A stretch of DNA of 20,541 nt from a virus. Below, piece by piece: positions 2,708 through 9,746 of the stretch. The notes beneath the pieces are model-generated. The model was not told the DNA's origin. It saw nothing but the letters and a program-made list of their open reading frames with translations, and ran no database searches. How positions within the stretch are numbered: the first letter of the stretch is position 1; each line of letters opens with the position of its first letter. The DNA is taken from positions 1 through 20,541 of the IMG/VR virus record IMGVR_UViG_3300029787_000228. One strand, given 5' to 3'. Made by a program: the position numbers and the translations under genes.

Positions 2708-2862
2708 TGAAGAAAAAAAGCTATGCTGTGGGCGGTGCTCCCAAGAAAGAAGCAATGATGGGCGGTGGTGCTATGAAGAAAAAAAGTTATGCTGTTGGTG
2801 GCATGACAGATAAAAAGAAAATGATGGGTGGTGGCAAAGTTGTAAAAGGTCCATATAGTTAA
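2704..2862 (+). CDS. 52-residue Lys/Gly/Met-rich protein made of two 22-aa repeats
   Basis: ATG at 2704 overlaps the previous stop (ATGA), and its own stop overlaps the next start (TAATG), so it fills the gap exactly. The product is two copies of a 22-residue unit: MKKKSYAVGG at residues 2-11 and 24-33, and MMGGG at 18-22 and 40-44, ending KVVKGPYS. It is basic, glycine-rich and probably disordered. Marine phages often carry such MKKKxYAxGG peptides next to neck genes; no role is established that I know of. Being only 52 residues and low-complexity, it is easily dropped by gene callers. A DNA-contacting or glue-like virion peptide is a reasonable guess. Confidence 0.75.
   Translation: MMKKKSYAVGGAPKKEAMMGGGAMKKKSYAVGGMTDKKKMMGGGKVVKGPYS
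2707..2802 (+). repeat. Tandem 66-nt coding repeat
   Basis: Bases from 2707 (ATGAAGAAAAAAAG, then TATGCTGTGGGCGG with one variant base between) recur from 2773 with a few third-position changes. The offset is exactly 66 bases, giving the 22-residue protein repeat. The synonymous differences show that the duplication is not very recent and that the protein sequence is being kept. Confidence 0.8.
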
Positions 2863-3530
2863 TGACAACTTCATCCTCTACTAATTTTGAATTAGACGTA
2901 GCCGAATATATTGAGGAAGCCTTTGAGCGATGTGGCTTAGAGGTTAGAACTGGATATGATCTACAGACAGCAAAAAGGTCTATGAATATACTTCTTGCTG
3001 ATTGGGCTAATAGAGGATTGAATCAGTGGACTATTGAACAAAGGACACAAACTTTAACATCTGGAACTTCAGAATATGATTTAGGCACAGATGTAATTGA
3101 TGTGTTGAATGCAGTAATACGAAGAAGTACTACAGATTTTAGCATTAGTAGAATAGGCAGAGATCAGTTTTTAAACATACCTACTAAATCTACAACTGGA
3201 AGACCAAGCCAATATTTTTTAGATAGGCAAATTACACCTAAATTAAAATTATGGGCGACACCAGAAAACAGCACAGATATTTTTGTGTATGATGCTCTAA
3301 CTCGTATTCAAGATGCTGACACTGCAAAAAATACAGTTGAAGTGCCTTTTAGGTTTTATCCTTGTTTAACTGCAGGATTAGCTTACTATTTAGCAATGAA
3401 AAAAGCACCTGATAGAATACAACTCTTAAAAGCTATGTATGAAGAAGAGTTTGAAAGAGCCTCTGCAGAAGATAGAGATAGATCTAATTTATCATTAACC
3501 CCAAGTAGTACATATTATGGTTTTGTATGA
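2862..3530 (+). CDS. Neck/adaptor protein, P22 gp4 or tail-tubular-A-like candidate
   Basis: 222 residues. Helical N-terminus (FELDVAEYIEEAFERCGLEV), then RTGYDLQTAKRSMNILLADW and NRGLNQWTIEQ, a beta middle (YDLGTDVIDVLNAVIRR; GRPSQYFLDRQITPKLKLW), and a C-terminal helix (YPCLTAGLAYYLAMKKAPDR). The order of helix pair, beta segment with a Pro-tyr-trp style DRQ...LKLWATPE strand, then AGLAYYLA helix matches phage proteins that form the ring beneath the portal, compared with P22 gp4 or T7 gp11. Recognition is by pattern, not by alignment. It directly precedes a second adaptor-type gene. It would join the portal to the nozzle and is needed to keep DNA in the head. Confidence 0.75.
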   Translation: MTTSSSTNFELDVAEYIEEAFERCGLEVRTGYDLQTAKRSMNILLADWANRGLNQWTIEQRTQTLTSGTSEYDLGTDVIDVLNAVIRRSTTDFSISRIGRDQFLNIPTKSTTGRPSQYFLDRQITPKLKLWATPENSTDIFVYDALTRIQDADTAKNTVEVPFRFYPCLTAGLAYYLAMKKAPDRIQLLKAMYEEEFERASAEDRDRSNLSLTPSSTYYGFV

Positions 3531-5937: not shown

Positions 5938-5950
5938 GGTAGCTCCTTAT
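5934..5950 (+). promoter_or_regulatory. Inverted repeat spanning stop, ribosome site and start codon
   Basis: ATAAGG (5934-5939) and CCTTAT (5945-5950) are perfect complements around a five-base loop TAGCT. The left arm holds the upstream stop and the AAGG ribosome site; the right arm ends in the first two bases of the ATG at 5949. A hairpin would hide the start, but the stem is only six pairs. Confidence 0.35.
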
Positions 5951-6761
5951 GGCTAACATTGGTTGGGGTCAAGGGGGCTATGGACAAAATAGATGGGGTG
6001 GAAAACTTGATGTTTCCGCTTCTCCTAGTGGTGTAGAAGCTACTGGAGCTGTCGGCTCTGTAACTGCTTTTGCCAGTTTTATAATTTCAGTTACTGGATC
6101 GTCTGCAACGGGATCTGTAGGCACTGCCGTTGCATCAATACCAATATCATTTAGTGTAACTGGTGTTTCTGCCACAATCGGTTTTATGACTGGTTGGGGT
6201 AATGATGGTTGGGGTGCTGGAGTATGGGGTGGTGGTGTCGCCGCTATTCCTGGACAAACTTTAGCCGTCACTCTTTCAGCTCTTACTGGATCTGTAGGTT
6301 CATTAACTGTGACTGGAACGGGTATATTTTCTGTAACTGGTAATGCAGGAACTACTGCTTTAGGTGATGCACTTGCAGGAGCTGGAGCAAGAGTTGTTGA
6401 AACGGGACTTACTGGAACAGTAAATATTGGTAGTGAATCTGTTGTAGGTACTGCTTTAATATCATTGACAGGTAATGCAGGAACAACATCAGTTGGAACA
6501 CCTACTTTAATAACATCTACTGGAGCTCCTACTACAAATGTTGTTGGGACAATGTCTCTTGGTGCTGAAACAGTAACAGCAGGATCAAATACGGCAGTTA
6601 CTTTAGGTGGAATGAGTATTTCATTAGGAACACTTGCAATGTCTGGGAGTTCTGTGTTATCTTTAACTGGAATTAGTGCAACTGGTTCTACTGGAGCAGA
6701 ACAAGTTTATAGCTTAATAGAGCCAGACCAACTGGCTAACTGGATTGAAAGGGTGGCGTAA
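5949..6761 (+). CDS. Gly/Trp-rich repeat tail protein
   Basis: 270 residues of low charge. Two Trp/Gly blocks, residues 5-18 (GWGQGGYGQNRWGG) and 82-96 (GWGNDGWGAGVWGGG), are separated and followed by many repeats of the form TGSVGSLTVTG, SVTGNAGTTALG or SLTGNAGTTSVG. The C-terminal 15 residues (EQVYSLIEPDQLANWIERVA) are different, amphipathic and possibly an attachment helix. The repeats look like short beta strands of an elongated fibre or a beta-helix. The W/G block is repeated in the gp10-like protein at 9763. The location before the collar fibre gene supports a tail spike or fibre component. The long run of near-repeats makes exact family assignment impossible by eye. Confidence 0.8.
   Translation: MANIGWGQGGYGQNRWGGKLDVSASPSGVEATGAVGSVTAFASFIISVTGSSATGSVGTAVASIPISFSVTGVSATIGFMTGWGNDGWGAGVWGGGVAAIPGQTLAVTLSALTGSVGSLTVTGTGIFSVTGNAGTTALGDALAGAGARVVETGLTGTVNIGSESVVGTALISLTGNAGTTSVGTPTLITSTGAPTTNVVGTMSLGAETVTAGSNTAVTLGGMSISLGTLAMSGSSVLSLTGISATGSTGAEQVYSLIEPDQLANWIERVA
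6207..6222 (+). repeat. 16-base match to the gp10-like gene (10351-10366)
   Basis: GGTTGGGGTGCTGGAG is identical here and at 10351-10366, in the same reading frame (GWGAG). It marks a W/G-rich motif shared by two different tail proteins. Confidence 0.7.
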
Positions 6762-7855
6762 TGGCAACATATGTTAACAATCTTAGATTAAAAGAAATTA
6801 CGACTGGTGATGAATCTGGTTCATGGGGTACATCTACAAACACCAATCTTGAACTTATTGGTGAAGCACTAGGGTTTGGAACTGAAGCCATAACTACTAA
6901 TGCAGATACACATGCAACCACAGTCGCTGACGGTAGTGCTGATGAAGGAAGAGCTATGTATATTAAATATACTGGCACATTAGATTCAACATGTACTATA
7001 ACAATAGGTCCTAATACATTAAAAAGAGTGCATGTTATTGAAAATGCAACTTCTGGTTCGCAATCAATAATAATATCACAAGGTAGTGGTGCGAATGTAA
7101 CAATACTGACTGGCGAAACTAAAGCTGTTTATTTAGATGGAGCGGGAAGTGGAGCCGCTGTTGTTGATGCTTTTGATAATTTATCAATAGATGGAGCAAA
7201 TCTTACTGGTACACCAACTTCACCAACTGCTAATGCAGGGACTAACACGACACAAGTCGCTACAACTGCTTTTGTAAAAACTGCTGTGGACGCGGCAGAA
7301 CCTTTTCCATCAGGCACGTCTATGTTGTTTCAACAAACAAACGCACCAACTGGTTGGACAAAACAAACAACTCATAATGATAAGGCATTGAGACTACAAA
7401 CGGGAACAGTCGGAACTGGTGGTAGTGTGGCATTTAGTACAGCTTTGGCAACTCCTGCAATAAGTGTAGGAAGTATAAGTGGTAATCCAGGGACAAATCA
7501 AACTGTCGCCGCAGGAAACTTAGCAGTAAGTATGAGCGGTAATATAGCTGACCATACACTTTCAGTAAATGAAATACCAAGCCATAGTCATACTATACCA
7601 ATTGAAGCACCCTCAAATACAGTTACTCAAGGTATTGGTGGGGCTAATTTGGGTAACTTCCAAGTACAGAATAATCGTTCAACATCAAATACTGGTGGTG
7701 GCGGTGGTCACGGTCACAATCACAATCTTAGTGGTTCTATGAGTGGTGCTCCAAGTATAAGTGGTAATGTGACAGCAGGAAACTTAGCAGTAGGAAGTTC
7801 AACTGCTACAATCAATGTATCGTATGTGGATTTTATTATAGCTAATAAGGATTAA
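6761..7855 (+). CDS. Tail fibre with phage collar domain and His-rich loops
   Basis: 364 residues. The N-terminus (1-45) contains LKEITTGDESGSWGTSTNTN, which looks like an attachment domain common in marine fibres. Residues 150-172 (GTPTSPTANAGTNTTQVATT, then AFV) match the short phage fibre repeat. Residues 181-200 (PFPSGTSMLFQQTNAPTGWT) match the tail collar domain. EIPSHSHT at 271-278 and HGHNHN at 317-322 are the His-x-His loops that bind metal in T4 gp12-like fibre tips, and YVDFII ends the domain. It therefore probably recognises the host surface at the tail tip. Upstream AAAGGG and a TAATG overlap couple it to the repeat protein. The next three genes may modify or fold it. Confidence 0.88.
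   Translation: MATYVNNLRLKEITTGDESGSWGTSTNTNLELIGEALGFGTEAITTNADTHATTVADGSADEGRAMYIKYTGTLDSTCTITIGPNTLKRVHVIENATSGSQSIIISQGSGANVTILTGETKAVYLDGAGSGAAVVDAFDNLSIDGANLTGTPTSPTANAGTNTTQVATTAFVKTAVDAAEPFPSGTSMLFQQTNAPTGWTKQTTHNDKALRLQTGTVGTGGSVAFSTALATPAISVGSISGNPGTNQTVAAGNLAVSMSGNIADHTLSVNEIPSHSHTIPIEAPSNTVTQGIGGANLGNFQVQNNRSTSNTGGGGGHGHNHNLSGSMSGAPSISGNVTAGNLAVGSSTATINVSYVDFIIANKD
7471..7792 (+). repeat. Duplicated coding segments around the His-rich tip
   Basis: AAGTATAAGTGGTAAT occurs at 7471-7486 and 7753-7768, and an identical 18-base GCAGGAAACTTAGCAGTA at 7511-7528 and 7775-7792. In protein they give SISGN and AGNLAV pairs on both sides of the HxH loops, so the tip contains an internal duplication. 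Confidence 0.75.
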
Positions 7856-7856
7856 T

Positions 7857-8165
7857 ATGCAGTTAAAGGTTGAAGATAATTGCCCTTTAAATAATTTCAA
7901 AAAATGTAAACAATTTAAATGTGCATGGTTTGTCCAAATGAAAGGAACTAACCCTAATGATGGTAAAGAAGTAGATGAATATGCTTGTTCTATGGCTTGG
8001 TTGCCAATGTTGTTGGTTGAAAATGCAATGCAATCAAGACAATCAGGAGCGGCGATTGAATCATTTAGAAATGAAATGGTAAAAGCAAATCAGTCAAATC
8101 AAAACTTATTAGAGCTATCTAAATTTATGGAATTAAGAAATAAAAATAATAAGGCATTAAGATGA
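7857..8165 (+). CDS. Cys-rich small protein, conserved in marine phages, unknown function
   Basis: 102 residues. The four Cys are at positions 9, 17, 22 and 44, all in the first half, with the surrounding text NCPLNNFKKCKQFKCAWFVQ and EVDEYACSMAWLPMLLVENA. The second half is helical (SGAAIESFRNEMVKANQSNQ). I recognise this protein type from marine phages, where CP.NN...C...xC.WF and AC..AWLPxLxxEN are constant. The four Cys could form a zinc or iron site, but spacing C-x7-C-x4-C-x21-C matches no site that I can name. It lies between the fibre gene and two Fe(II) oxygenases and overlaps the first oxygenase by ATGA, so a link with that pair is possible. Confidence 0.82.
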   Translation: MQLKVEDNCPLNNFKKCKQFKCAWFVQMKGTNPNDGKEVDEYACSMAWLPMLLVENAMQSRQSGAAIESFRNEMVKANQSNQNLLELSKFMELRNKNNKALR

Positions 8166-8181
8166 ATGATATGACAAAAAT
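8162..8181 (+). repeat. 20-base direct repeat at start of first oxygenase
   Basis: ATGAATGATATGACAAAAAT is identical to 8764-8783. It contains the start codon and the ATGA overlap with the upstream stop in both copies. It encodes the same first six residues (MNDMTK) of two otherwise different proteins. Confidence 0.9.
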
Positions 8182-8767
8182 GCTTTTGTTACCGCCAACA
8201 AGCAATCATCTTATTAATACCTTATATGTAAGTCATAAATTTTTTAATGATGACCATGTAAAAGAAATATTAAAAGAAGTAAAAAATGATGCGTGGGTTG
8301 ATTCAGATACTGTTAATCCTGATACTGGTCAAAGCAGAAAGACTAAACAAAGAATTTGTCAGGGACAAAATATACCAAATAATTTTCCTATAGAAAATCT
8401 TTTAGATGTTGTAAATCAATTAAATTCACAATATTGGAAATTTAATCTCCATGGTATTGATGTGGCTAAAGATTATCCTTTTTTGTATAAATACAATGTA
8501 GGAGGACATTTTGATTGGCATATAGATATGTCAGCAGTTATATCTACTCGTAAATTGGCATTTAGTATTCAACTAAGTAATCCTGAAGATTACGAAGGTG
8601 GGGATTTACAATTTTATGATGGCAATAATCCTACATCAGATTTACAATTAAGAGAAAAAGGTTCTTTAATAATTTTTCCATCTTTTGTTTGGCATAGAGT
8701 AACACCTATAACTAAAGGAACAAGATATGCTATTGTTGGGTGGATACATGGGGAAACTTTTAAATGA
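8162..8767 (+). CDS. 2-oxoglutarate/Fe(II) oxygenase, PKHD (prolyl hydroxylase-like) type
   Basis: 201 residues. Domain from about 103: Y111 to G115 and F117 lead to H120-x-D122 (GGHFDWHID), the first two iron ligands. STRKLAFSIQLSN and YEGGDLQFYDG form the jelly-roll core. H178 (FVWHRVTP) is the third ligand and R188 (GTRYAIVGW), ten residues on, should bind the 2-oxoglutarate carboxylate. All expected catalytic residues are present, so the enzyme should be active. Members hydroxylate prolines, lysines or other substrates, using O2 and 2-oxoglutarate and releasing succinate and CO2. The actual substrate is unknown. Neighbouring fibre and nozzle genes suggest virion protein hydroxylation, but that is inference. 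Residues 1-60 carry a charged, possibly substrate-specific N-terminal part. Confidence 0.92.
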   Translation: MNDMTKMLLLPPTSNHLINTLYVSHKFFNDDHVKEILKEVKNDAWVDSDTVNPDTGQSRKTKQRICQGQNIPNNFPIENLLDVVNQLNSQYWKFNLHGIDVAKDYPFLYKYNVGGHFDWHIDMSAVISTRKLAFSIQLSNPEDYEGGDLQFYDGNNPTSDLQLREKGSLIIFPSFVWHRVTPITKGTRYAIVGWIHGETFK

Positions 8768-8783
8768 ATGATATGACAAAAAT
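8764..8783 (+). repeat. 20-base direct repeat at start of second oxygenase
   Basis: Second copy of the 20 bases at 8162-8181, again starting with the ATG and overlapping the stop of the gene before. Immediately after the 20 bases the two coding sequences diverge. Confidence 0.9.
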
Positions 8784-9345
8784 AAAAAATTTAACTTTTA
8801 TTAGTGCTTACGAAAACCTAGCACCTGATAATTATTGTGATAGAATGATAAAAGCTTTTGATAAATTAGAAAAAACTTGTTCAGCTAGTTTTGGTTCTGA
8901 TACAAATGGTAAAGGAGTGAGAAAAGATTTTTCTTTTTATTTTGATGAGGAAAGAAATAACACAATACCTTTAGCACAAGAAACTAATAAAATATTAGAT
9001 GAAGGTTTAGCTAAATATACAAATGAATATCCATCATTAGCACCACTTCAATATTACAGCAAAGTTATAAAGGTACAAAGGACACCACCAAAAGGTGGAT
9101 TTCATGCTTGGCATAGAGAGCATGGAGTGGGCGAGATATCACATAGAATTTTAGTATGGACAATTTATCTTAATGATATTCCTCAAGGCGAAGGTGAAAC
9201 AGAGTTTTTAGAATATGGTATGAAAGTACAACCCAAAAAAGGAACAGTTTGTTTTTTCCCTGCGGGATTTACACATACTCACAGAGGAAATGCAGTCTAC
9301 ACACACGATAAATATATAGCTACTGGTTGGTACTATTTACTATAA
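8764..9345 (+). CDS. Second 2-oxoglutarate/Fe(II) oxygenase, HxE variant
   Basis: 193 residues. The jelly-roll region begins near residue 95: GGFHAWHREHG gives H117-x-E119, with Glu in place of the more usual Asp. ISHRILVWTIYLNDIPQGEG and ETEFLEYGMKVQPKKGTVCF follow, then FPAGFTHTHRG (H171 or H173 as third ligand) and HDKYIATGWYYL with K183, a lysine where the first oxygenase has Arg for 2-oxoglutarate. The FHxWHxE and FPAxxTHxHRG set is known to me from phage and bacterial oxygenases, so the HxE may be normal for this branch. Beyond the jelly-roll core it does not resemble the adjacent oxygenase; they are not recent duplicates. It would hydroxylate an unidentified substrate in the infected cell. 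Confidence 0.9.
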   Translation: MNDMTKIKNLTFISAYENLAPDNYCDRMIKAFDKLEKTCSASFGSDTNGKGVRKDFSFYFDEERNNTIPLAQETNKILDEGLAKYTNEYPSLAPLQYYSKVIKVQRTPPKGGFHAWHREHGVGEISHRILVWTIYLNDIPQGEGETEFLEYGMKVQPKKGTVCFFPAGFTHTHRGNAVYTHDKYIATGWYYLL

Positions 9346-9356: not shown

Positions 9357-9746
9357 ATGGCTAACATAACGTATATAAAAGATGGCGAAAACTCAAAATC
9401 ACAATTAATTATAGATGGAGTGCAAGTAGATTCATCTGATTATGGTGTTGCCTCAAACATTCATGCTATACAATGGAATGGTTCTAAAGGTGAAATAGAA
9501 TACAATGATGGTAAAGGTAATGAAGAAATTACAGATATATCATCTTATGATTTTGAAACAAAACATAGTACAGAGAAAAAAGCTCAAGAAGATGCTGAAG
9601 CAAAAGCTATAGCTGATCGTACTTATGCTGAAAAAAGACAAGCAGAATACCCAAGTATTCCAGATCAATTAGATGATATTTATCACAATGGTATTGATGC
9701 TTGGAAAACTACAATCAAAGCAGTTAAAGATAAATACCCTAAATAA
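9357..9746 (+). CDS. Fibre-associated/assembly-type protein, unknown function
   Basis: 129 residues from the ATG at 9357. N-terminal 65 residues are beta-type and polar (ITYIKDGENSKSQLIIDGVQ; SNIHAIQWNGSKGEIEYNDG). Then a charged helix (STEKKAQEDAEAKAIADRTY) and a C-terminal YPSIPDQLDDIYHNGIDAWK with IKAVKDKYPK at the end. The C-terminal YPSIxDQLDxI...W...I..VKxKYPK motif is widespread in phages next to fibre genes and has a chaperone- or XkdW-like style; the name is tentative. A beta head plus helical tail suits a fibre base or folding protein. It sits between the oxygenases and the nozzle gene and starts from a strong ribosome site. Confidence 0.82.
   Translation: MANITYIKDGENSKSQLIIDGVQVDSSDYGVASNIHAIQWNGSKGEIEYNDGKGNEEITDISSYDFETKHSTEKKAQEDAEAKAIADRTYAEKRQAEYPSIPDQLDDIYHNGIDAWKTTIKAVKDKYPK

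Follow-up and report, generated by a model that had tools for sequence, protein, structure and literature searches.

The window is a stretch of 20,541 nucleotides, a portion of a 29.6-kb virus record (IMGVR_UViG_3300029787_000228). An SU10-type adaptor protein (PF24175), encoded at positions 2862-3530, marks it as a tail and neck assembly region. Ahead of the fibre gene discussed below is a gene (5949-6761) for a 270-residue, repetitive protein rich in Gly, Ala, Thr and Ser, which is kept upstream in close relatives. The locus comprises the following features.

6761-7855, + strand: tail fibre protein, 364 residues, with PHROG tail-fibre matches; the C-terminal part is common with relatives
7298-7852, + strand: C-terminal tip domain of the fibre, residues 180-364, the conserved core of the module, common to fibres of about 150-990 residues
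7583-7591, + strand: first HxH motif, His275 and His277, 99% conserved in 159 tips
7709-7726, + strand: second motif, HxHxHN (His317, His319, His321 and Asn322), its HxH 100% conserved in 159 tips
7857-8165, + strand: four-Cys fibre-partner protein, 102 residues, conserved tetrad Cys9, Cys17, Cys22 and Cys44; AlphaFold2 model with pLDDT 87
8161-8181, + strand: junction repeat, copy 1, at the start of oxA, 21 nucleotides with one mismatch to copy 2
8162-8767, + strand: oxA, predicted 2OG-Fe(II) oxygenase with HxD/H/R ligands, an accessory insertion (PF13640, E 9e-17)
8763-8783, + strand: junction repeat, copy 2, at the start of oxB, 21 nucleotides, near-identical to copy 1
8764-9345, + strand: oxB, predicted 2OG-Fe(II) oxygenase with HxE/H/K ligands, the common oxygenase of the module (PF13640, E 4e-10)
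9357-9746, + strand: 129-residue protein resembling tail-assembly chaperones, third partner in the module, with PF16778 in relatives

The genes are tightly packed. A single nucleotide separates the fibre stop codon (7855) from the ATG of the four-Cys gene (7857), ATGA overlaps join the four-Cys gene to oxA (8162-8165) and oxA to oxB (8764-8767), and 11 nucleotides lie between oxB and the next ORF. A previous, sequence-only reading of the locus had described these positions and overlaps, and the ORF coordinates bear it out. Its list of members, fibre, four-Cys protein and two oxygenases, was right as far as it went and overlooked the 129-residue ORF.

On sequence grounds oxA and oxB are members of the PF13640 superfamily and predicted oxygenases, scoring 62.3 and 40.9 bits, respectively, against a cut-off of 27. 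The iron triad and the basic residue that binds 2OG are complete in both (oxA H120-x-D122...H178...R188; oxB H117-x-E119...H173...K183), confirming the distinction drawn earlier between an HxD enzyme with Arg and an HxE enzyme with Lys. The H/E/H/K set is present in 69 of 87 aligned module-type oxygenases, which is almost all of those of the oxB type, whilst most HxD-type enzymes use Arg as the basic residue. The only solved proteins matched by oxB are 3itq, 5hv0 and 5iax, with E values of 6.5e-6 to about 7e-6 over the C-terminal part only. With the bacterial prolyl 4-hydroxylases among them (3itq, 5hv0) oxB shares the 2OG-Fe(II) fold family and a lysine that binds 2OG, but it carries HxE where they have HxD and so departs from the collagen-type iron motif. 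On reading the neighbouring fibre sequence no collagen-like Gly-X-Y tract was found.

The 2OG-Fe(II) oxygenases of cyanophages (PHROG 61 and 81, 'piuC'), present in hundreds of marine phages, belong to the same superfamily. The window enzymes are less than 60% identical to every annotated record and, unlike the cyanophage enzymes, are tied to a specific fibre-tip module. Phages P-SSM2 and S-SCSM1 display a similar arrangement, uncommented in their records. Among isolates with the module, S-SCSM1 has several oxygenases there and Roseobacter phage CRP-361 none that is annotated. Several families that match these oxygenases (PHROG 2297, 274 and 3531, and P-SSM2 gp031 at L006:6877-7470) are named DNA endonuclease, DNA endonuclease V or ferrochelatase; these names look like misannotations.

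The two enzymes differ in their standing. Nearly all relatives lack oxA at this position, and oxB is the usual enzyme where one occurs; oxA was rejected as a core gene of the module. The 21-nucleotide repeat found at both oxygenase starts, for which the number expected by chance is none, suggests recombination at a conserved junction as the route by which oxA arrived. Of 170 collected oxygenases, 86 start with MNDMTK or MNDMTR.

Relatives with fibres of about 150 to 990 residues have in common only the C-terminal 185 or so residues, and many are without the N-terminal part of the window fibre. In the PDB the profile of the tip finds two chains of tail fibres, 9qgo_A (E 1.8e-7) and 9nxk_A (E 6.8e-7), and Gp10_C is detected in 14 of 28 members of the tip family. 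The tip is related by profile to solved tail fibres, and the HxH sites are candidate metal sites. One paper describes iron in the T4 gp37 tip as held by HxH motifs (PMC11705849), and iron binding has been proposed there for marine fibres with such motifs. The window tip likewise has HxH motifs and a detectable profile similarity to 9qgo, 9nxk and Gp10_C. It differs from tips of the gp37 type in its four-Cys partner and in the 2OG oxygenases that often accompany the two.

The four cysteines are present in all of the first 65 relatives of the four-Cys protein. In an alignment of 108 sequences, 35-88% identical to the window protein, the four columns hold Cys in 108, 107, 108 and 108 cases, one member having its second Cys shifted. 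An AlphaFold2 model from 26 sequences (pLDDT 62) was discarded; that from the 108 sequences (pLDDT 87) predicts a Cys-rich N-terminal part, a hairpin (residues 25-44) and a long C-terminal helix (45-101). Searches of Pfam, PHROGs and NCBIfam gave no family match and the PDB no sequence match, nor did the model find anything significant among PDB folds or resemble a known chaperone there; across these databases neither sequence nor fold matched a known metal-binding chaperone or an Fe-S tail-tip protein. A viral fold library returned only two uncharacterised phage proteins, apparently of the same family.

Fibres may have dedicated assembly factors, as in the gp37-gp38 pair of T4 and the Stf-Tfa pair of lambda. 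Like those partners the four-Cys protein is small, encoded just behind the fibre tip and co-inherited with it. It differs in resembling no known chaperone in sequence or in fold, and the Tfa/APC-like member of the window module is the 129-residue protein, not the four-Cys protein. Judged on sequence, the family is a previously undescribed, taxonomically wide partner of a metal-motif fibre tip. The predicted fold, and the fact that its gene is always found close to that of the tip, suggest that it may be a factor stabilised by metal that assembles, loads or caps the tip.

The comparison of neighbourhoods covered several hundred loci, one scan extending to 600 candidates. In 50,697 annotated phage records the tip occurs in 8 and the four-Cys protein in 12, the 8 all falling within the 12; in P-SSM2, among the remaining four-Cys records, the Cys gene again follows a fibre gene. 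Among the IMG/VR loci the four-Cys gene is present on 60 of the 61 contigs that bear the tip and have room for it, and the tip lies no more than 1.8 kb upstream of 141 of 145 distinct four-Cys genes; these figures are somewhat favourable, given that the latter pool includes loci seeded with the tip and that the HMMs were derived from the same ORFs. Of the 30 four-Cys copies recognised in bacterial genomes, 29 sit behind such a fibre; these prophage-like loci are on contigs attributed to Mesorhizobium, Phyllobacterium, Desulfovibrio, Nitratidesulfovibrio, Oceanisphaera, Undibacterium, Nitrosospira and others. An oxygenase close to the Cys gene is seen in just two of them, L275 and L278, both in aquatic MAGs. 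Marine podophages, T4-like cyanophages and prophage-like loci all have the pair, mostly with no oxygenase, from which we take the four-Cys protein to be the partner of the fibre tip and the oxygenase to be an addition.

The four-Cys gene is placed directly behind the tip domain or one to two genes behind it. Gene orders observed are fibre, Cys, oxygenase, 129-residue ORF; fibre, oxygenase, 129-residue ORF, Cys; and fibre, Cys, 129-residue ORF. The occurrence of both of the first two indicates that linkage survives rearrangement. Covariation, expressed as Mantel rank correlation, is 0.83 for oxB with the Cys protein, 0.66 for tip with Cys protein, 0.64 for tip with oxB and 0.20 for oxB with the nozzle-like protein. 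The conserved neighbourhood that the sequence-only reading had proposed as a check is therefore present and strong, and is centred on the C-terminal tip of the fibre. That reading placed the enzymes with fibre or nozzle; the fibre half holds, for the tip, and the nozzle half does not. Its co-location argument is supported in outline, sharpened towards the tip.

The product of the 621-codon gene at 9763 matches virion-structural PHROG 3287 and is compatible with a nozzle or stabilisation protein. As an oxygenase substrate it was rejected, in view of the low covariation and its being absent or unrelated in many modules. The window 129-residue protein has no match in Pfam, PF16778 included, and a weak one (E 0.05) to PHROG 4912 (tail fibre assembly), whilst its relatives at the same position in four other modules (L103, L119, L137 and L216) contain PF16778, a tail-assembly-chaperone domain. 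The tip, the four-Cys protein and this chaperone-like protein are linked across phage types despite changing order and flanks, a conclusion drawn from comparison of sequences, and the oxygenases are optional.

An oxygenase was detected in at least 67 of 141 modules, a lower bound since some oxygenase types escaped the HMMs (L126, L216). With about half of the modules having none detected, modification would not be essential. Where they occur the enzymes are concentrated: in the same loci their density is 0.60 per kb inside the module and 0.016 per kb outside. The independent Pfam model PF13640, applied to 39 whole records (1.21 Mb), placed 21 of 22 matches beside the Cys gene or tip, positions being matched by hand to contig ranges; as the records are related to each other, any formal probability is illustrative only. 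Subfamilies in the module include the HxE/Lys oxB type, the HxD/Arg oxA type, PF13759 types and others, and in relatives the module is, from these counts, an apparent oxygenase hotspot. Two to four different 2OG oxygenases, PF13759 included, flank the 129-residue ORF on both sides at L010:3955-5073, L008:4970-6856 and L069:4237-5367.

The tip sequence itself offers a lead to the substrate. The extended HxHxHN motif is present in 58 of 66 oxygenase-positive modules and in 1 of 65 oxygenase-negative ones, and with oxB-type enzymes the consensus is HxHxHN(L/M/F)(S/A)G or a close variant. On the tree of the Cys protein the association rests on about seven oxygenase changes; the independent pairs (4-7) agree and are too few for a sign test, and we rejected the association as decisive statistical proof. 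A single tip with the motif (L103) lacks an oxygenase beside it. His321 and Asn322 are the best candidates for a hydroxylation site and the first residues to examine. Our literature search found no experiment on tail hydroxylation in bacterial viruses; one paper calls the viral use of prolyl 4-hydroxylase "cryptic" and points to hydroxyproline reported for a Chlorella virus.

On balance we favour, with a little more than even confidence, the view that the locus is a modular cassette for the receptor-binding tip, with oxygenases that hydroxylate this tip. Hydroxylation of the fibre by the module enzymes is plausible and the best reading of the comparisons. The tip would form a trimeric, metal-bearing structure like that of the T4 fibre tip. 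The cysteine tetrad may bind a metal or an Fe-S cluster, and the four-Cys protein, with its long helix, could assist in folding the tip, loading it with metal or capping it; the 129-residue protein would serve as assembly chaperone. Inside the infected cell oxB, together with oxA in this phage, would act on the freshly synthesised tip and hydroxylate residues in it, most probably close to the second HxH (His321/Asn322), so altering tip stability or receptor binding.

Should the enzymes not act on the tip, they may be auxiliary metabolic or host-takeover enzymes, concerned with 2OG and nitrogen signalling or nucleic acid repair, that pile up at a variable site, prone to recombination, just after the fibre gene. 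Roles of this kind have been put forward for the 2OG oxygenases of cyanophages (PMC3037559), PHROG 61 is filed under auxiliary or takeover genes, and the junction repeat suggests easy insertion; one large phage (the record of L123) also keeps several oxygenases elsewhere, far from the module. We nevertheless regard this as rather unlikely: almost all PF13640 matches in the smaller phage records lie inside the module, oxB covaries with the tip and the four-Cys protein, and linkage is kept while gene order is shuffled.

Tip hydroxylation can also be elaborated into an exchangeable modification system, in which a four-Cys metalloprotein loads the HxH tip and the HxE/Lys hydroxylase modifies the Asn or His of HxHxHN beside the metal, thereby tuning host recognition in oxygenated, iron-poor water. 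We hold this fuller scheme to be unlikely as it stands.

The suggestion that the small Cys protein is itself the substrate of the oxygenases, or delivers Fe(II) to them, draws on the adjacency of the genes and on a covariation that no other pair exceeds. It appears improbable, and the earlier proposal of a substrate or metal carrier is disfavoured, because the protein accompanies the tip in many modules and prophage-like loci that have no oxygenase, including those of the sulfate reducers Desulfovibrio and Nitratidesulfovibrio, and its Cys tetrad is independent of oxygenase presence. Least probable is modification of the host surface (lipid A, polysaccharide or receptor) to leave progeny fibres untrapped or block superinfection: 2OG enzymes are known to hydroxylate cell-surface lipids, and fibre linkage, read as matched specificity, and modular exchange would fit equally, but the closest relatives with solved structures act on proteins, as prolyl hydroxylases.

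Hundreds of 2OG-Fe(II) oxygenases in marine phages have no known substrate, and the link to the fibre tip provides a concrete, testable candidate substrate and residue. In aquatic phages the pair of tip and four-Cys protein often carries oxygen-using enzymes that may modify the tip chemically. The new element is an undescribed, taxonomically wide family that partners a metal-motif receptor-binding tip, which bears on phage host range and on the proposed binding of oceanic iron by phage tails.

Two observations concern the flanks. The 621-residue nozzle-like protein has its nearest counterparts in phage DSL-LC04, Roseobacter phages CRP-901 and CRP-902, and Pelagibacter phages such as HTVC023P. 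In S-SCSM2R (L005:8063-12240) the Cys gene and oxygenase are followed by glycosyltransferases, an aminotransferase-like gene and a radical SAM maturase, possibly further genes for modification of the fibre or surface.
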